Assembly: GCF_012035195.1 (NCBI RefSeq)
Contig: NZ_JAAVJH010000002.1
Coordinates: 310,001-374,000, forward strand
Length of the DNA stretch: 64,000 bases
Direction: 5' to 3'
Origin: Sphingomonas corticis
Lineage (GTDB): Bacteria; Pseudomonadota; Alphaproteobacteria; Sphingomonadales; Sphingomonadaceae
The notes under the pieces are model-generated. The model was not told the DNA's origin. It did not search any database and saw only the letters and a list, made by a program, of their open reading frames with translations. Below, piece after piece: positions 3,876-57,192 of this stretch. The position numbers and the translations under genes were made by a program. Each line of letters begins with the position of its first letter. Positions within the stretch are counted from its first letter, which is position 1.

Positions 3876-4850
3876 CTAACGGGCCGCCCGCACCCGCCCC
3901 AGCCAGTCGAGCAGCAGGCGGTTCACCTCGGCCGGCCGCTCCTGCTGCGTCCAGTGGCCGCAGCCGTCCAGCATGTGCCCTTCCAGCCGCGGCACCATCG
4001 GCGCCATCGCCGCCACCGGATCGGCCACCGCACCGAACAGGGTGGAGGCGGGATCCTTCGTACCGCCGACGAACAGCGCCGGTTGCTCGATGCGGCGGTC
4101 GGCGAAGCGCCGCGCCCATTCGAAGTCGCGCTCGTGATTGCGATAGCGGTTCAGGGGGCCGGCAAGGCCCGACGCCTCGAACTCCGCCACGTAATAGTCG
4201 AGGTCCGCCTCCGTCAGCCACGCCGGGAAGGGATCGGGATCGGCCAGCCCGTCCAGCAGCCGCGAATCGACCGGCTTCTCCGGCCACGACCCCGCGGGCG
4301 CGTCGCCGCTGATCGAATAGATGAAGCGGCGCAGGAAGCCGCGCACGTCGGCCTGCAGTTCGCCCTCCGCCTTGCCGGGCTGCTGGAAATATTCCTGGTA
4401 GAAGAAGCGGCCCTTGGCGGTGAAGGCCTGGCGGAACACTTCGGTGAAGGGCCGCTTGGGCACGCCGAGGAACGGTACGGACAGCGCGGCCACCGCCGCG
4501 AAGCGGTCGGGCCGTGCCAGCGCGCTGTTCCAGACGATCGGCGCGCCCCAGTCATGGCCGAGAAGGATCGCCGGTGCGCCGGGTTGCAGCGCATCCGCCA
4601 CGCCGACCAGGTCGCCGACCAGCGCCTCCATGTCGTAGGCGGCCACGTCCTGCGGCTTGTCCGACCCGCCATAGCCGCGCACGTCGATCGCGCAGGCGGT
4701 GAAGCCGGCGGCGGCCACCGGGCCGATCTGGTGCCGCCAGGAATACCAGCTCTCCGGAAAGCCGTGGACCATCACGACCAGCGGCCCGGCCCCCTCCACC
4801 ACGGCCCGCAGCCGCACCGCGCCGGCATCGATCGTCCGGAATTCGGTCAT
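3876..4850 (-). CDS. Alpha/beta hydrolase, epoxide hydrolase-like
   Basis: The protein has 324 residues with an alpha/beta-hydrolase fold. The oxyanion motif [10 protein letters not shown] is at residues 29-38. The nucleophile elbow GHDWG places Asp at residue 100, which points to the epoxide hydrolase / haloalkane dehalogenase branch rather than Ser esterases. Downstream lie VGGTKDPAS (candidate acid) and [11 protein letters not shown] (catalytic His). The substrate is unknown. ATG 4850 is preceded by a GAGGAGA ribosome site; an in-frame start at 4904 would overlap the next gene. It is probably a single-gene unit. Confidence 0.85.
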
Positions 4851-48238: not shown

Positions 48239-49363
48239 TTACTGACCGGCGCCCGGTCCGTAGGTGATCTCCACGCGACGGTTCTGCACTTCGCGCACGC
48301 CATCGGCAGTGTCGACACGCGGGCGGCTCTCGCCGAACGCCTCGGTCGAGATCGTGCCTTCCGGGATCGCCTTCGACACCAGATAGCCCTTCACCGCGTC
48401 GGCACGGCGCTGCGACAGGCCGACGTTGTACGAGGCTGCACCCGAACGGTCGGCGTGACCGGCCAGCATGACCTGCGCGTTGTTGCAGGTCTGGTACTGG
48501 GTAACGGCGTTGTCGAGGATCGACGCGGCCTCCGGCGTGATGTCCGACTTGTCCCACTCGAAGAACACGATGAACGGACCCGGCGAGCAGACCACCTCGG
48601 GCGGAGGGGGCGGCGGCGGCGGGGGCGGCGGGGGCGGCGGCGGGGGCGGAGGAGCCGCAGCCGGCTCTTCCGGCGCACCGAAGTTGTACGTCACGCCGCC
48701 CAGGATGCTGTGCGAGCGGAAGCGGCCATCGTACGCGCTGTTGCGCGCGTCGACGAGCTTCACGTTGTCGGCGTTGAAGAAGCGATACTTCAGCGAGACG
48801 TCGACGTTGTCGCTCAGCGGAGCGCGGACGCCCGCCAGGGCCTGCCACGCGAAGACCGTGTCGGAATCGTCGATCAGCTGGTAGGAACGACGCAGCGACG
48901 CGCGCTCCTTCACCCGGGCGACACCCGCACCGCCGCCGACGAAGCCCTGCAGGCCGTCGTCCGGACCGAAGTCGAGCAGGCCGTTGACCATGAAGCTGAG
49001 CGCCGAGGTGCGGCCGCCGGCGCCGCCGTACGAACCGGGGGCCACGGTGGCCGTGCCAGAGACCGGGATCGAGCCGGTCGAGCTGTAGCCGTCGACGGTC
49101 GCGGTGCGATAGCCGACTTCCGCCTCCAGGCGGAACGCGCCGAAGTCGTAACCGACGACGCCGTCCAGATCGTAGCCGTAGTTGCTGTCGACCGTGCCGG
49201 TGCCCGACAGGCCCGCGGTGGCGCTGCTGATCGAATAGTCGATGTCCTCGACAATCATCGCGCCGCCGTTCACGCCGACATACCACGCCTGATCGCGCGC
49301 GAGCGCGGGCGAGGCGATGGCGGTGGAAGCAAGCGCCATGACCATGGCAAGCTTACGCATCAT
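48239..49363 (-). CDS. OmpA family protein with 18-residue proline hinge
   Basis: The protein has 374 residues. A signal peptide (MVMALASTAIASPALA) is followed by an N-terminal eight-stranded barrel (about residues 25-230, opening WYVGVNGGAM and closing HSILGGVTYNFG), a hinge with 18 consecutive prolines (48599-48652), and an OmpA C-terminal peptidoglycan-binding domain (VFFEWDKSDITPEAASIL, MLAGHADRSGAASYN, SQRRADAVKGYLV). It anchors the outer membrane to the wall. The long proline tract is coded by GC-rich repeats prone to slippage. Single gene with its own terminator. Confidence 0.94.
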   Translation of the reverse strand: MMRKLAMVMALASTAIASPALARDQAWYVGVNGGAMIVEDIDYSISSATAGLSGTGTVDSNYGYDLDGVVGYDFGAFRLEAEVGYRTATVDGYSSTGSIPVSGTATVAPGSYGGAGGRTSALSFMVNGLLDFGPDDGLQGFVGGGAGVARVKERASLRRSYQLIDDSDTVFAWQALAGVRAPLSDNVDVSLKYRFFNADNVKLVDARNSAYDGRFRSHSILGGVTYNFGAPEEPAAAPPPPPPPPPPPPPPPPPPEVVCSPGPFIVFFEWDKSDITPEAASILDNAVTQYQTCNNAQVMLAGHADRSGAASYNVGLSQRRADAVKGYLVSKAIPEGTISTEAFGESRPRVDTADGVREVQNRRVEITYGPGAGQ

Positions 49364-49474: not shown

Positions 49475-49972
49475 TCAGGCGCCGAGCAGGCCGTGGGCGG
49501 TCAGCGCGGCGAGGATCTGCTGGATCGCCGCCCGCGCCTCGACGTCGATCACCGTTCCTCCGCTCGGTGCGGGCACCGCCACCCGGCGCGCGCCCACGAC
49601 CTGCTGCCCGTCGATCATCAGGGCGCGGCCGCGCAGCACGCCGTCCTCCCACGTTCCGTCAACCCGCGCCGCCGGTCGTCCCGTCGCCCGGTTCCACACC
49701 GCCATCCCGTCGCGCGCGGGAAGGAAGCGCCAGCCGCCGGCGGTCCACCCGGCCACGCTGCCCGCCCGTCCCGCCCACTCCTCGGTCGGCGCGCTGCCGA
49801 CGATCCAGCATTGCCCGGCCAGCGGCGAAGCCGGCGGCGTGTTGGTGGCGACGGCCTCCACCACGGTGTGCAGGCCGATGTCGATCAGCGCCAGCGCCTC
49901 GTTGTGCGTCAATTCCTTCTGCGCCTGGCCGCTCTCCAGCAGCGGCAGGGCGAAGCGTGCGGTGTCGCTCAT
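49475..49972 (-). CDS. DUF2793 domain protein of the GTA-like cluster
   Basis: The protein has 165 residues. It begins MSDTARFALPLLESGQAQKE, then LTHNEALALIDIGLHTVVEA, the signature start of DUF2793, found at the end of alphaproteobacterial GTA and phage tail clusters. The C-terminal part (IDVEARAAIQQILAALTAHGLL) is helical. Probably a tail-tip or fibre-related structural protein. 14 bp after the tail protein gene; last gene of the cluster. Confidence 0.85.
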   Translation of the reverse strand: MSDTARFALPLLESGQAQKELTHNEALALIDIGLHTVVEAVATNTPPASPLAGQCWIVGSAPTEEWAGRAGSVAGWTAGGWRFLPARDGMAVWNRATGRPAARVDGTWEDGVLRGRALMIDGQQVVGARRVAVPAPSGGTVIDVEARAAIQQILAALTAHGLLGA

Positions 49973-49986
49973 GCGGTGCTCCTTCC

Positions 49987-52101
49987 TCAGATGGTGATGG
50001 TGGCGGCGGGCGATGGCGCCAGCGTGCCGATCTGCCGGACGCTCACCGTCGCCGGCCCGGCGCCAATGCCGCCCGCGGCGAGGGCGAAGGCGGGCGTGTC
50101 GACGATCCATTCGCGGATCGTGCCCGCCTGGTCGACGACGACGCGATAGGTCTCGCGCTCCTCCACCAGCGGAACGTCCACGCCGTCCTCCCACCGCCAG
50201 CCGCGGCGGCTGCGGCGGATCCAGCTCGCGCGCAGTCCACCCGCGGTGTCGCGATGGGCGCGCAGGTGGACGGGCGCGGGCGGCGCCACCGACAGGCGCG
50301 TCGGCGCGACCGTCCGGGTGGCGGCGTTCACGCCGTCGCCGATCCCGCTCGCGCTGACGGACACCGGCCGGGATGCGTCGGCGAGCGGCAGCGCGACCAG
50401 CGTCGCGCGCTCGATCAGGACGAAGCGTGCACCGGCATCATGCGCCGCGACGGCGGTGCCGCGTCTCCCGCGCCACAGGCCGGACAGGCGCCAGCGCCGC
50501 GGCGAAAGCCGGGCGGCGTCGGCGAATTGGATCAGCTCGTCGCCCAATAGCGCCAGGTTCGCGCCACCCGCCAGGGCGGCGGCACCGGCGGGTTCCAGCC
50601 CGACGTCGTCGTGCGCGAAAACGACGGTGAGCGTCTCGGCATGGTCGGTCAGCGCCGCGGTGGTCGCTCGCACCGGCAGGTCGAGCATACCGATGATCGC
50701 GGGCGGCGCAGTCGCTCCGGCATCCTCCCACGCGATGCCGTCGCGGCTGATCGACAGGGCCGCGCCGCGCCAGCCCGCCTCCGTGCCCGCCGCCGCGATC
50801 AGCAGCTGCGGCACGTCGGGCAGCGCATCGTCGAGCGGGGGCAGTTCGAACACCTCCAGCACGGTCCGGCCGGCCGGATGGTCGGCCTCCAGGATCGGCC
50901 GGCCGGCATCCGCGGGGCGCGCCGTCACACCGGCCGCGACCGGCACCAGGTCCAGCGTCACCTGCATCCCCTCCACCGATGCCTGCGTGACGCGCCAGTC
51001 GCCCGTCTCGCCGGCCACGCGTACCGGGTCGCCCGGTGCCACGCCGATGCTGCCGATGTCCGCCGTCACCCGCCGTCGCACCCGCGCCGTCTCGCGCGCC
51101 AGCAGCGCGGCATCGGCGATCCGCCGCGCCTGGGCCGCGGAAAGCGCGGCGGGCAGCTCGATCGCGAGATGGCCGTGCCCCGCGCCCGGGCGCCGCGCCA
51201 GCTGCCTGCCGATCTGATAGTCTCGCGCCGCGTCATAGTGCGACAGCGACAGCGAGAGCGGCACCGCGTCGATCGTGCCGCGCACCATCTCCTGCGCCAC
51301 GTCGGCGTCCAGCACCGTCGCCGGCCCCGCCGCGGCGTCGCGCATGGCCAGCCCGCCGCCCTGCGGCACGAACCAGGCGCCCGCCGCCTGCGCCAGCGTC
51401 TCCAGCGCGCCGGCCACGCCGCTGCCGGCGGCGGCGAAGCCGTCGACCGTCGCCGTCGGCCCCTCCCCGACGATCGCGCCCGCGCCCAGCTCGCGCGCGA
51501 TCGCGCCGACCGGCACCGCGCGCTCGTCCGCGGTCACTTCGAAGGTCAGCGACGGGATGCGGTTGCCGAAGTCGGCGAGCTGCAGTTCCTCGAACACGGC
51601 ATAGGCGATCCCGCGGTGCGCCGGTGTCGGGTTGGACAGGCTGGCGATCAGCGGGTCGGCCGCCTGGTCCTCGTCGCCGCGATGCAGCCGGAACCCGGTC
51701 GCGCTCTTCCAGTCGCCCGCCGCGCCGCGCAGCAGCTTGCCGTCCGCCCATATCCGCCCGACGCGCAGCACCGGCCGCGCCGACAGCGCTACGGCGAAGG
51801 ACGCGGCGTAGCTGTAGCTCGCGGTCGCCGGCTGTCCCTTGCCTCCGCGCCGCCGGGCGCGCGTCTCGATCAGGTCGGTCGACCAGATCACCGTGCCCGC
51901 CACGCGCATCGTGCCAAACACGCGCGGGATCTGCGTGCCGTAGGTCGACGTCTGCAGCGCCAGTTCGGTCAGCCGCGGGCCCTGGCGCGCGGGCGGGGCG
52001 AGCAGCCGCCGGTCGATCGCCTGCCCGGCCAGGGCGCCCAGCGCCGCGCCGATCGGCCCACCGATCGCCCCGCCCACCGTGGTCAATACCAGTGTCGCCA
52101 T
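49987..52101 (-). CDS. GTA-type tail hub/tip protein (gp15-like)
   Basis: The protein has 704 residues. N-terminus MATLVLTTVGGAIGGPIGAA followed by GQAIDRRLL and IPRVFGTMRVAGTVIWSTDL matches the opening of the GTA gp15 / phage tail protein family. About half as long as the 1,300-residue Rhodobacter gp15; the TIM-barrel domain is not evident, so only the tail_3-type part seems present, which may be the normal sphingomonad form. Later FDLPV-like beta regions continue to the end without an internal stop. ATG 52101 is next to the NlpC/P60 stop. Confidence 0.82.
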   Translation of the reverse strand: MATLVLTTVGGAIGGPIGAALGALAGQAIDRRLLAPPARQGPRLTELALQTSTYGTQIPRVFGTMRVAGTVIWSTDLIETRARRRGGKGQPATASYSYAASFAVALSARPVLRVGRIWADGKLLRGAAGDWKSATGFRLHRGDEDQAADPLIASLSNPTPAHRGIAYAVFEELQLADFGNRIPSLTFEVTADERAVPVGAIARELGAGAIVGEGPTATVDGFAAAGSGVAGALETLAQAAGAWFVPQGGGLAMRDAAAGPATVLDADVAQEMVRGTIDAVPLSLSLSHYDAARDYQIGRQLARRPGAGHGHLAIELPAALSAAQARRIADAALLARETARVRRRVTADIGSIGVAPGDPVRVAGETGDWRVTQASVEGMQVTLDLVPVAAGVTARPADAGRPILEADHPAGRTVLEVFELPPLDDALPDVPQLLIAAAGTEAGWRGAALSISRDGIAWEDAGATAPPAIIGMLDLPVRATTAALTDHAETLTVVFAHDDVGLEPAGAAALAGGANLALLGDELIQFADAARLSPRRWRLSGLWRGRRGTAVAAHDAGARFVLIERATLVALPLADASRPVSVSASGIGDGVNAATRTVAPTRLSVAPPAPVHLRAHRDTAGGLRASWIRRSRRGWRWEDGVDVPLVEERETYRVVVDQAGTIREWIVDTPAFALAAGGIGAGPATVSVRQIGTLAPSPAATITI

Positions 52102-52102
52102 G

Positions 52103-52495
52103 TCACTCCTCCTCCCGTGCGACGCGCCACGCCGTCACGATCGGCCACGGCACCGCGCCGGGCCGCTCGACCACCCGACGCGCCGCCGCGTCGGCGTGCA
52201 CCGTGCCGCCCGGCACGCGCACCAGCAGGTGCAGCTGCGTCGCCGCGACGCGGCACAGCAGGACGTCGCCAGTCGCCGCGCCGTCGCACTCGGCGAGGCC
52301 GGCAGGCACCGCCAGCGGCGCGCCGGTGCGCAGCGCGTAGCCCTCCGGCACCTGCCCGCGCCAACCCGCGGCGCGAAGCGCGCAGGCGGCCACGCCGACG
52401 CAGTCCAATCCGCCGGCGCGATCGCGGCCGCGCGCCCGGAACCGCGCGCCGACGCACGCCCGTGCCGCCGCCGCGGCGCGCTCCCCCGCCGTCAT
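52103..52495 (-). CDS. NlpC/P60 family peptidase of the GTA-like cluster (gp14-like)
   Basis: The protein has 130 residues. GLDCVGVAACALRAAGW carries the catalytic Cys, and TQLHLLVRVPGG the His, of the NlpC/P60 fold, in the place taken by gp14 in GTA clusters. It would cut peptidoglycan during DNA delivery. Shorter than usual (about 145-150), but both key residues remain. The ATG overlaps the original stop of the DUF2163 gene (see 52534-53301), showing ancestral coupling. Confidence 0.85.
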   Translation of the reverse strand: MTAGERAAAAARACVGARFRARGRDRAGGLDCVGVAACALRAAGWRGQVPEGYALRTGAPLAVPAGLAECDGAATGDVLLCRVAATQLHLLVRVPGGTVHADAAARRVVERPGAVPWPIVTAWRVAREEE

Positions 52496-52533: not shown

Positions 52534-53301
52534 CTAAGGCTCGCCGCGGAAGTTCGCGACGTTACCGAACCGGCTCGCGCAGGTCGCGATCGTCCCGTCG
52601 CACCCCTCGATCAACTCGACCAGCGCTCCCGCCGCGACCGAGAAGGCCGGCGGCGTGCGCAGCGTGACGCCCGCGCCGTGCGAGCGCGCGACCGCCGTCT
52701 CCAGCCCGGCGTTGGCGCCGCCCAGCCAGCGCACGCGCCCGTCGCCATAGGCATCGTCCACCGGCTCCGCCGCGTCCAGCGTCAGCGCGGTGCCCGCCGA
52801 CGCGACGACCCGGGCGAACCGCCGTCGTCCCGCCATCGCCACCCGGCATCGCGCGTCGCCCAGCACGGCCCGACACCCCGGCGAGGTCGCCTCCGTCACC
52901 GGCCGCTCCAGCCGCGCGGCGGCGCCTTGCAACTCGGCGGCGAAGCCACCGTCGGCGACCGTCACCTCGCCCATTCGTCCCTCGGCGAGCGGCACGGGCA
53001 GGGTGCCGGCGTCGCTCCAGTCGATCGCGAAGGCGACCACCCGCGCCCCATCCCACCGCCCCGCCGCCAGGTCACGCGCGGTGATCGCCGCGGCGTGCAG
53101 CGCGCCTCTCGCCTCCATCGTCGCCGCGTCCAGCCCCTCGCTGCGCACGATGGCGGACGGGGTCATGCCCGGCGCGGCGCGATACAGGTCGTCGCCGATC
53201 GACAGGTCGCGATCGTGGTCGGTCAGCGCGATCGTCACGCCGTCGCGCCGCTCGATCCGCCAGCACAGCGCGATGCTCGATATCCGGTCCGCGCCGCTCA
53301 T
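52534..53301 (-). CDS. DUF2163 (gp13-like) tail protein cut by a premature amber codon
   Basis: The protein has 255 residues before a TAG at 52536-52534. It has the DUF2163 core: SSIALCWRIERRDGVTIALT, FTDHDRDL-type start, MTPSAIVRSEGLD, PGCRAVLGDARCRV and CASRFGNVANFRGEP. In frame after the TAG the sequence reads LPGMDLLTRYPGA and then a TGA overlapping the next gene's ATG. The family normally continues through a conserved P-G-D...RYP tail, so the TAG removes a genuine tail of 13 residues plus the lost codon. Start ATG 53301 overlaps the fusion ORF stop. May be non-functional. Confidence 0.85.
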   Translation of the reverse strand: MSGADRISSIALCWRIERRDGVTIALTDHDRDLSIGDDLYRAAPGMTPSAIVRSEGLDAATMEARGALHAAAITARDLAAGRWDGARVVAFAIDWSDAGTLPVPLAEGRMGEVTVADGGFAAELQGAAARLERPVTEATSPGCRAVLGDARCRVAMAGRRRFARVVASAGTALTLDAAEPVDDAYGDGRVRWLGGANAGLETAVARSHGAGVTLRTPPAFSVAAGALVELIEGCDGTIATCASRFGNVANFRGEP

Positions 53302-53732
53302 GCCTCGCGCACCTCGATCAGCGGCACGCTGGGCGCCGCGCCCGCCTGGAACGTCGCGCGCTGCACGCTCAGCCGGTCCTCGGCGACCCGCTCGGGCCGC
53401 AGCGGGAACAGCGCGCTCGCCGCGCCGTCCTCGTTGCGCAGGATCTGCACGAAGGCATTGCCGTGCAGCAGCAGCTGCACCGCCACCGCCTCCATCAGCC
53501 CGCGCGCGCCGATCAGCGTCGCCAGCGCGGGGTCGCCCGCATCCAGCGGCGCACCGCCGACCCCTTCGGCCACCAGCCGTACCGCGCGCTGCGCCACCGC
53601 GTTGGACAGATATCCCGCGCGCACCTGCGCGTCGTAGCCCTGCGGCACCGCCTCCGTCCGCCACGCGCTCCCGGCACGCGACAGCGCCGGGCGCGCGCCT
53701 GCGCGCCCGGGCTTCCACCCGAACCATGCCAT
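53298..53732 (-). pseudogene. Portal (gp3) N-terminus fused in frame to DUF2460 (gp12) C-terminus
   Basis: The ORF has 144 codons. Residues 1-115 (MAWFGWKPGR, PQGYDAQVRAGYLSNAVAQR, LLLHGNAFVQILRNEDG, LFPLRPERV) are the N-terminal third of a GTA/HK97 portal protein, which is normally about 390-400 residues. Residues 117-144 (AEDRLSVQRATFQAGAAPSV, then PLIEVREA) are the conserved C-terminal end of DUF2460 (gp12). The junction is around 53375-53395. A deletion has removed the rest of gp3, gp4-gp11 and most of gp12. No portal function can remain. Its stop overlaps the DUF2163 start as the gp12 stop would. Confidence 0.85.
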
Positions 53733-53759: not shown

Positions 53760-55094
53760 TCAGACGACCGCCACGCGCCCCTTCGGCACCGGCTTCAGCA
53801 TCAGATGCGTCAGCGCGTAGACGCAGGCGTCGGCCCGGTCGGGCGACCGGCCCGGCCCCTCGTAGCCGCCGCCCGCCGACAATCCCGCCAGCTCGTCCTC
53901 CAGCGCGGGGAAGGCGCCCGCGTGGAACACTCGCCCGCTCTCGTACAGCGCCGCCACCGGCTCCGCCCGCGCCACCTTGCCGCGGCTGGCGTGGACCAGC
54001 GTCAGCGGCAGCGTCGCCTCCGCCGCGCGCAGGACGCTCGCCACCATCGCGCCGCCCTGGTTCGCCTCCGCGATCACGCGGTCCGCGCCCACCCGCGCCG
54101 CGCACGCCGCCACCGCCCGCGCCCACCCTTCGGGCGAGGCGTTCGCCACGCTCGCATCCTCGATCACGTAGCCGCGACCGTCCTCCGCCTGGCCCGCCGC
54201 GACGATGCCGCAGGCGTCGCCAGCGGTCCCGGCGGGCGGATCGACGCCGACGACTACGCGCACCAGCGCCGGCGCATCGCGCACGCGCTGCCGCTCGATG
54301 AGCGCGCGCGGCCACAGCGCACCGACCACGTCGTCCAGCAGCTCGCCGTCCAGCTCCTGCCGGCCCAGCCGCGTCCCGCCATATTCCGCCGCCATCGCCG
54401 CGACGAAGGCGGCGGGCAGGTGCGCGTTGTCGCCGGTCCGCCCGCGCGTCTCGACCACGCCGGGCATCGCCATCACCTGCCGCATCAGCCGCGTCGGCCG
54501 CGGCGTGGTGGTGACGATCGCGCGCGGCAGGTCGCCCAGCCGCAATCCCATCATCAGGTTCGTCCAGGCGTCCGGCCGGGTCCACTTGGCCAGCTCGTCG
54601 GCCCAGGCGACGTGGTGCTCCGGACCGCGCAGGCTCTCCGGCGCGGCGGCGGAATAGATCCGCGCCACCGCGCCGCTGGCGAAGCGCACCTCGCCCCGCG
54701 TCGGCCGCCACTCGACCCGCTCGTGCGGCGCCGCCACGGCGACGACGCCGCTCGGCCCCTCCACCATCACGCCGCGCGCCTCGTCGATCGTCGCGCCGAC
54801 CAGCGCGATGCGCGCGTTGCCGCACAGCCGCGCCTGCTCGTAGACCCACTCGGCGCCGGCGCGGGTCTTGCCGAAGCCGCGCCCTGCGCGGATCAGCCAC
54901 ACCCGCCACGCGCCCGCCGGCCCGACCTGCCCGGCGTGCGCCGACAGCGTCCAGCGCGCCGCCAGTTCGCGCCGCTGCGCGTCCGGCAGGTCGGCCAGCA
55001 CCCGCCTTCGGACGTCCGCGTCCGCCCCCGCCAGCCGCCAGATGTCCTCGCCGACGATGTCCCGGCGCGTTCCCGCCGGCCGTCGCGCCGTCAC
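53760..55094 (-). CDS. Large terminase of the GTA-like cluster (gp2-like)
   Basis: The protein has 444 residues. The ATPase domain has Walker A IRAGRGFGKTRAGAEWV (about residues 68-84), Walker B VAWADELAKW and the coupling TTTPRPTRLM; the nuclease domain has VVVGVDPPAGTAGDACGI and, later, SPDRADACVYALTHL, whose acidic residues bind metal. It looks intact. It would package DNA headfuls, but no portal or capsid partner remains in the cluster. The GTG start overlaps the gp1-like stop. Confidence 0.92.
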   Translation of the reverse strand: MTARRPAGTRRDIVGEDIWRLAGADADVRRRVLADLPDAQRRELAARWTLSAHAGQVGPAGAWRVWLIRAGRGFGKTRAGAEWVYEQARLCGNARIALVGATIDEARGVMVEGPSGVVAVAAPHERVEWRPTRGEVRFASGAVARIYSAAAPESLRGPEHHVAWADELAKWTRPDAWTNLMMGLRLGDLPRAIVTTTPRPTRLMRQVMAMPGVVETRGRTGDNAHLPAAFVAAMAAEYGGTRLGRQELDGELLDDVVGALWPRALIERQRVRDAPALVRVVVGVDPPAGTAGDACGIVAAGQAEDGRGYVIEDASVANASPEGWARAVAACAARVGADRVIAEANQGGAMVASVLRAAEATLPLTLVHASRGKVARAEPVAALYESGRVFHAGAFPALEDELAGLSAGGGYEGPGRSPDRADACVYALTHLMLKPVPKGRVAVV

Positions 55095-55363
55095 GCCTCC
55101 GCCGCCAGCGCGTCCAGCTTGCGCCGGATCGTCGCGTCCGTGTCCGCCGCGCTGGCGAAGCGCGTCGCCGGCCCGACTGTCGCTTCCCGCGTCCGCGCCA
55201 GCAGCGCCAGCCCCAGCTGGATGTCGGCGGCGGTCACCGCCTTGCTCGCGCCCTCGGCTTCCATCCGCCCGATCAGATAGGCCAGCATCGCCCGCTCCAG
55301 CCGCGCGTACCGCGCCGCCAGCGCGCGCCCGCCCGCGACCGGACCCCCGCTCCCCTGCGCCAT
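55091..55363 (-). CDS. Small gene in the gp1 (small terminase-like) position
   Basis: The protein has 90 residues, mostly helical (RYARLERAMLAYLIGRMEAE, IRRKLDALAAEA), in the place of the GTA gp1/TerS gene directly before the large terminase. Function as small terminase is inferred from position. ATG 55363, preceded by a purine-rich GAAGGGGG, was chosen over a GTG at 55417. First gene of the cluster. Confidence 0.6.
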   Translation of the reverse strand: MAQGSGGPVAGGRALAARYARLERAMLAYLIGRMEAEGASKAVTAADIQLGLALLARTREATVGPATRFASAADTDATIRRKLDALAAEA

Positions 55364-55584
55364 GCCGCCCCCTTCGCCCGAAAACGCCGCGGGCCGGTGC
55401 GCCGGGGTGTCCACCACCCCGCCGCCCGGCCCGACTCACACCATCTCGATGTTCCCGTTATGTACACAAACAGCGTCGCGCTGTCAAGGGCTCTGGCGGC
55501 GCCCGGCCCGCTTAGTCGGATCGACTATCGACCCCCCGCACCATCGAAGCCGACAATAACACCGATCGATCAGGAGTTTCGGCC

Positions 55585-57117: not shown

Positions 57118-57192
57118 TGGTGCCCAGGGGCGGAGTCGAACCACCGACACGACGATTTTCAGTCGTCTGCTCTACCACTGAGCTACCCGGGC
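57118..57192 (-). tRNA. tRNA-Phe (GAA)
   Basis: 75 bases including an encoded CCA. The acceptor GCCCGGG pairs with CCTGGGC (one G-U), the D arm is AGCTCAGTGGTAGAGCA, the anticodon arm GACGA-CTGAAAA-TCGTC with anticodon GAA, and the T arm GGTGG-TTCGACT-CCGCC. It lies immediately downstream of yacG on the same strand. Confidence 0.97.

Follow-up and report, generated by a model that had tools for sequence, protein, structure and literature searches.

A portal-gp12 fusion ORF in a GTA remnant of Sphingomonas corticis, probable scar of a recurring in-frame deletion

The window analysed here, a stretch of 64,000 nucleotides from the Sphingomonas corticis genome (contig NZ_JAAVJH010000002.1, positions 310,001 to 374,000), exhibits on its minus strand a 144-aa ORF (position 53298 to 53732, ATG start) in which codons 1 to 116 of a portal gene run on, in frame, into the final 28 codons of gp12, a DUF2460 gene. 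We consider it fairly probable that this ORF is the in-frame scar of a GTA-disabling deletion of about 7.5 kb, one that several relatives have probably undergone independently, with the same join. For the cluster genes we use the GTA name and the gp numbers of RcGTA, which we take to apply here.

The portal part (53385 to 53732, minus strand) ends with the codons CTG CGG CCC GAG CGG GT|C, and the gp12 part (last 28 codons plus stop, 53298 to 53384) encodes AEDRLSVQRATFQAGAAPSVPLIEVREA. The former exhibits 77-78% identity to the portal N-terminus of the relative G005, and the latter corresponds to residues 726 to 757 of the 757-aa gp12 of the same genome. A DNA alignment with G005 (locus L033) tracks the portal gene up to CCC GAG CGG GT, and then the end of gp12 down to its stop codon. 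In Pfam searches, Phage_portal (PF04860) matches residues 75-121 (E-value = 1.4e-8; 34.7 bits against a curated cut-off of 39.1; profile positions 42-97 of 321 only), and DUF2460 (PF09343) matches residues 115-142 (E-value = 0.0017; 18.2 bits against a cut-off of 30.4; profile positions 178-205 of 205 only). A family-length match above the curated cut-off is lacking in both cases, and the chimera is a member of neither Phage_portal nor DUF2460; such scores are expected because the two halves are fragments. An earlier sequence-only reading of this DNA had described the ORF as a portal start switching around residue 116 to a DUF2460 end, placed between a large terminase and a DUF2163 gene with the downstream overlap intact. 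This description is borne out: residues 117-144 match the end of DUF2460, weakly, and the portal half matches PF04860; the terminase lies upstream and DUF2163 downstream, and the stop/start overlap GCATGA (53298 to 53301) is preserved, as in G005.

The surrounding genes are all on the minus strand, in the order large terminase, chimera, DUF2163, gp14, gp15, DUF2793, OmpA-like. The large terminase gene (53760 to 55097, start approximate) has an open frame, and tblastn matches positions 53763-55040 to residues 12-435 of the G005 terminase (TerL). Next to it is a putative small-terminase-like gene (55091 to 55417, minus strand), for which the match is partial only; a tRNA gene is found at 57121-57192 on the minus strand (Rfam RF00005). 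The DUF2163 gene (gp13, 52534 to 53301) stops at a TAG (52534-52536, minus strand) 13 codons early (...FRGEP*LPGMDLLTRYPGA), at a cost of 13 residues; the full end is present in G005 and in all 10 further genomes compared. The gp14-like gene (52103 to 52495) is nearly full length relative to G005. It is followed by a gp15-like tail protein gene (49987 to 52101; PF13550, Rcc01698_C), by the DUF2793 gene at the downstream edge of the cluster (49484 to 49963), and by the adjoining OmpA-like gene (48239 to 49363), which is also present in those surveyed loci that reach that far. From TerL to OmpA the locus is collinear with G005 and has the same bordering neighbours, as a remnant of an RcGTA-like head-tail cluster. 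Relatives carry the terminase, portal, protease, capsid, tail, DUF2460, DUF2163, gp14 and gp15 genes in this order; in contrast, the window lacks everything from portal codon 116 to the last 28 gp12 codons. The portal body, protease, capsid, gp6 to gp11 and most of gp12 being absent at the locus, the cluster is not a functional RcGTA-like one. From the general biology of tailed-phage assembly, particle production is not expected here, the portal, protease, capsid and tail tube being gone.

The two ends joined in the chimera are 7.3 kb apart in G005, where the interval contains (gene labels assigned by position) the rest of the portal gene, a small gene, the protease, the capsid, gp6, gp8, gp9, gp10, a second small gene, gp11 and most of gp12. 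They are 7.9 kb apart in G183, which lies closest to the chimera in our trees, and 7.2-9.6 kb apart across 23 relatives keeping the block, with protease, capsid and tail-tube genes between them, some of these genomes carrying single frame breaks (e.g. in the portal gene of G241 and of G259, and in gp15 of G209). The portal-to-gp14 block is retained in G183, G028, G258 and G234 as far as the stretch examined extends, and the contig of G235 terminates within the small gene after a complete portal. Searches of the S. corticis genome itself, in which an empty result by itself proves nothing, gave neither a second GTA-type portal nor a DUF2460 match at an E-value of 0.001, and the G005 capsid found no counterpart. 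The sole other portal is that of an HK97-type prophage on contig 10 (L001), which is a separate element and also carries a terminase-like ORF. Because the block is intact in relatives with the same gene order, the portal half is nearest to a relative with a complete portal and the overlap is kept, one internal in-frame deletion fits the data and would account for the window locus. The sequence-only reading had already proposed one deletion fusing the two ends, and the comparison with intact sphingomonad clusters that it suggested agrees, in gene order and in the mapped deletion ends; the event is, however, not a single curiosity, as the same join exists in distant relatives.

Used as the sole query against 295 genomes of the genus, the window protein aligned over almost its full length in G194, G263 and G223, so that the portal-gp12 fusion is present in at least four of the 295. 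A profile of 18 fused proteins gave these four genomes 221-249 bits and the next best genome 195, a gap that is partly by construction, the profile containing proteins of all four. Divergent fusions may be missed among the genomes, the counts resting on the matches listed. The four share one reduced gene order, and the fused ORF is uninterrupted in each of them. None shows another GTA portal, and the separate complete portal beside the same short gene, which had been named beforehand as an observation that would speak against the fusion, was found in none of the four. In the 18-protein alignment the window protein runs as portal N-terminus to RPERV and continues in register with gp12 AEDRL, which places it in the same class as the others. 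A family-level draw of 397 genomes gave no further match spanning the whole profile among the matches listed. In a protein collection, 27 of 166 listed proteins are portal-gp12 fusions in one register (26 classified together and P0047 added by reading its alignment; three of the 27 are the genome cases), and 7 of the 166 are portal-DUF2793 fusions from the same portal codon. Among the matches listed for the 149 genomes of the genus of G533, no short portal-DUF2793 fusion was found; the match in G725 extends to query residue 192, and a separate DUF2793 match lies 8.3 kb off in the same genome. The same join in distant relatives most likely arose many times.

Some other proteins of the collection depart from this pattern. 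At the codon used by the fusions, the portal N-terminus of P0026 gives way to the C-terminal part of an ATP-dependent DNA ligase (PF04679, E-value = 0.0024), on a contig of 888 bases. P0052, P0112 and P0130 seem to have the portal frame shifted at or near RPERV, through possible real indels or assembly errors. P0058 is 96% identical to 39% of the window protein and then has an unrelated membrane-protein-like tail; it may come from a chimeric contig of a close relative.

A tree of 109 portal N-halves, 20 of them from fused sequences, requires 14 label changes, at least 8 of them forced by supported branches, and a single origin was found in 0% of 200 bootstraps. A tree of both halves (50 sequences) rejects a single fused clade (AU test, p = 4e-92) with 9 changes, 6 of them forced; in either tree a label change may be a gain or a loss. 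Fused and unfused sequences are still intermixed in a two-half tree with other genera added, from which G220 was dropped as a very long branch. The two-half groupings join the window with G183, G263 with G028 and P0004 with G258, and place G223 within a clade of G234, G165, G184, G097 and G258; G194 has no particular neighbour there, and the N-half tree pairs G194 with G235 and G223 with G234. It has to be asked whether one old fusion allele has travelled from species to species through homologous recombination, perhaps with GTAs as its carriers. The identical register of the join throughout would suit such an allele, as would the absence of a particular relative beside G194 in the two-half trees and the clade of P0002, P0008, P0009 and G263, which mixes fused and unfused members and in which one fusion followed by a regain of the block through recombination is possible. 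However, in none of 20 comparisons over the flanking genes (TerL, DUF2163, gp14, gp15, OmpA) is the genome nearest to a fused one another fused one, the portal part of P0004 shares 97% identity with that of G258 as far as the join and is followed by the same gp12 end as in G258, and the crossover point varies among the fusions. We thus regard a travelling allele as improbable. A misassembly or chimeric contig would be easier to imagine in an assembly of 54 contigs; yet the same join is found in separate genomes, including a protein from an isolate (P0014, Sphingomonas sp. JC676), and the S. corticis genome has no leftover GTA portal or DUF2460 match, which makes an artefact very hard to believe. 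Separate deletions are the simplest account for the fusion set as a whole. In four of the five flanking genes G194 is closest, among the genomes surveyed, to G238, which bears a different deletion; loss is therefore ongoing.

The codons around the join suggest how it may have been made. In an example of the register, the portal reads CCC GAG CGG GTG ACC GTG GAG and gp12 reads CCG GTG CGC TTC GCC GAG GAC; the window reads CCC GAG CGG GTC GCC GAG GAC. The junction valine codon is GTC or GTT in all four fusions, against 26 of 91 other portals. The partner codon in gp12 is a phenylalanine codon, and phenylalanine codons always end in C or T. Because the fused valine codons end in C or T, as this partner codon always does, the join most likely falls within the valine codon, between its second and third bases (GTC, 53385 to 53387 in the window). 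The crossover shifts among the fusions while the register is constant: most read V|A, P0121 reads P|VRF, P0004 and P0060 read R|F, and P0040 reads VS|AD. This pattern would suit a deletion guided by a short imperfect match. Short homology at the join had also been suggested by the sequence-only reading, and a match does exist; it is, however, a weak one, the parental DNAs being 43-67% identical over 21 nt in 23 genomes. In 17 of the 23 it is among the top-ranking 3% of positions (ranks from 0.06% to 20%, with the middle near 1.5%). Long direct repeats were rejected, since the 21-nt identity is modestly above background and sinks towards it in longer windows. The similarity at the join fails to account for the DUF2793 fusions at this portal codon (codons read by eye). 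DNA folding energies, averaged over 27 portals, did not single out the site as a hairpin: the best energy near codons 109-118 ranks 28, 13 and 35 of 359 codons for three window sizes, and that near codon 90 ranks 128, 113 and 174.

The same portal codon appears, from the compared sequences, to be a repeated deletion endpoint. In the surveyed genomes codon 116-117 is fused to gp12, to gp9 (G142) and to gp15 (G030, in which the frame breaks soon past the join), and in seven proteins to DUF2793. Of 22 events that truncate the portal, six lie within a span of three codons, a clustering matched in 2 of 100,000 random draws, or in 14 of 100,000 when the gp12 fusions are taken as one event. The reading frame is preserved in all six genome events at codon 116, and elsewhere in 5 of the 13 that could be classed (Fisher p = 0.017; p = 0.10 when each partner counts once). 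The events, their codon numbers and frame classes, and the branch pairs used below were compiled by hand, and the 80 loci surveyed for deletions were partly picked for looking truncated and are no random sample. G004, G034 and G253 are unclassed for frame, G103 is excluded for overlapping matches, loci missing the portal start (e.g. G025, G128) are left off the list, and the deletions of G016, G210, G115, G229 and G230 count as one event. With 5 of 13 in frame, the classed events at other positions lend no support to a general in-frame bias of GTA deletions. Other deletions in the genus (G142, G131, G188, G195, G238, G030 and others) likewise fuse a truncated portal to a downstream gene; they differ in partner or breakpoint, and away from codon 116 five of the 13 classed are in frame.

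A second portal endpoint is seen at codon 92 (LLLHG|), with several partners and mostly out of frame; folding energy singles out neither site. Out-of-frame joins at this codon (loci L035, L161-L164, L160 and L165) lead to DUF2793 in G016, G210, G115, G229 and G230, whereas the partner is gp15 in G195 and gp14 in G238. Further GTA deletions of the genus, some of them in frame, join TerL to portal, gp9 to gp12, gp11 to gp15 and DUF2163 to gp15 (L038, L077, L080 and L177, in G025, G083, G268 and G128). In G150 (L170, near 3990-4090) the portal continues into the protease through a repeat-like stretch, PHPNPSPEGEG.

The in-frame excess at codon 116 also fits selection on the product. The chimera could be a selected protein, a portal N-terminal module sealed by an in-frame tail that, for example, interferes with GTA or phage portal assembly; the recurrence would therefore reflect convergent selection. 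One portal codon is indeed joined in frame to gp12, gp9 and gp15 (6 of 6 genome events) and to DUF2793 (seven proteins), the open ORF of the four fused genomes suits a protein in use, and the portal half of these genomes exhibits no clear excess of protein change by dN/dS. On the other hand, the AlphaFold2 fold is not confident (mean pLDDT 52.4, 18 sequences), and the model was too poor for a further search for function through the fold. The fused branch is 5.7-8 times the length of its sister, as under relaxed constraint, in three of seven hand-picked pairs, and shorter than it in two (the pairs are those with a clear sister in the two-half tree including other genera; G194/G235 and G223/G234 are excluded). 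In G030 the frame was lost soon after the join, and in the window the DUF2163 gene is cut short. Branch lengths and the poor fold lean against a constrained protein without deciding the matter, and we regard a selected chimera as unlikely, though as the main competitor of the scar reading. The stronger version, in which GTA clusters repeatedly yield a new protein from about 116 portal residues, ended at the same codon and sealed in frame, that blocks GTA or phage portal assembly, seems to us somewhat less likely still.

We take the ORF instead to be a scar that happens to preserve the frame and the translational coupling. For such a scar, the portal site around codon 116 would be prone to deletion, and gp12 would be favoured as a partner by the short imperfect match in the same register. 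The short protein would have no portal function, and the main effect of the chimera would be to sustain translation into the DUF2163 gene. The flanking genes compared exhibit no clear acceleration by dN/dS in the fused lineages (for G194 a close partner is available only for TerL and the portal half), nor was a clear signal of relaxed selection seen in the genes compared; hence, with the exception of the early stop of DUF2163, these genes give no clear sign of decay after the deletion. Loss alleles would persist because GTA producers lyse and non-producers do not, and for this reason disabling deletions are probably tolerated or favoured.

In the portions of PMC10883770 available to us, pseudogenised GTA clusters are discussed as possible cheater lineages, because producers lyse. 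The present case is similar in that production is lost in a lineage with producing relatives, and differs from that account, as far as those portions go, in that different lineages share one exact in-frame join. The main text of PMC10883770 does not use the word "fusion", and the portions seen of PMC10883770, PMC6821227 and PMC7360931 make no mention of the present fusion; likewise, the parts of the literature covered by our search contain no description of a codon-exact join repeated in distant lineages. The loss of GTA clusters is already known, and the recurrence of the portal-gp12 fusion is the new point. The join marks one class of GTA loss at the sequence level. It poses a sharp question, why one portal codon repeatedly ends deletions, and the mark lets work on populations and on transfer ask whether non-producers are favoured, a question raised in the portions of PMC10883770 available to us.
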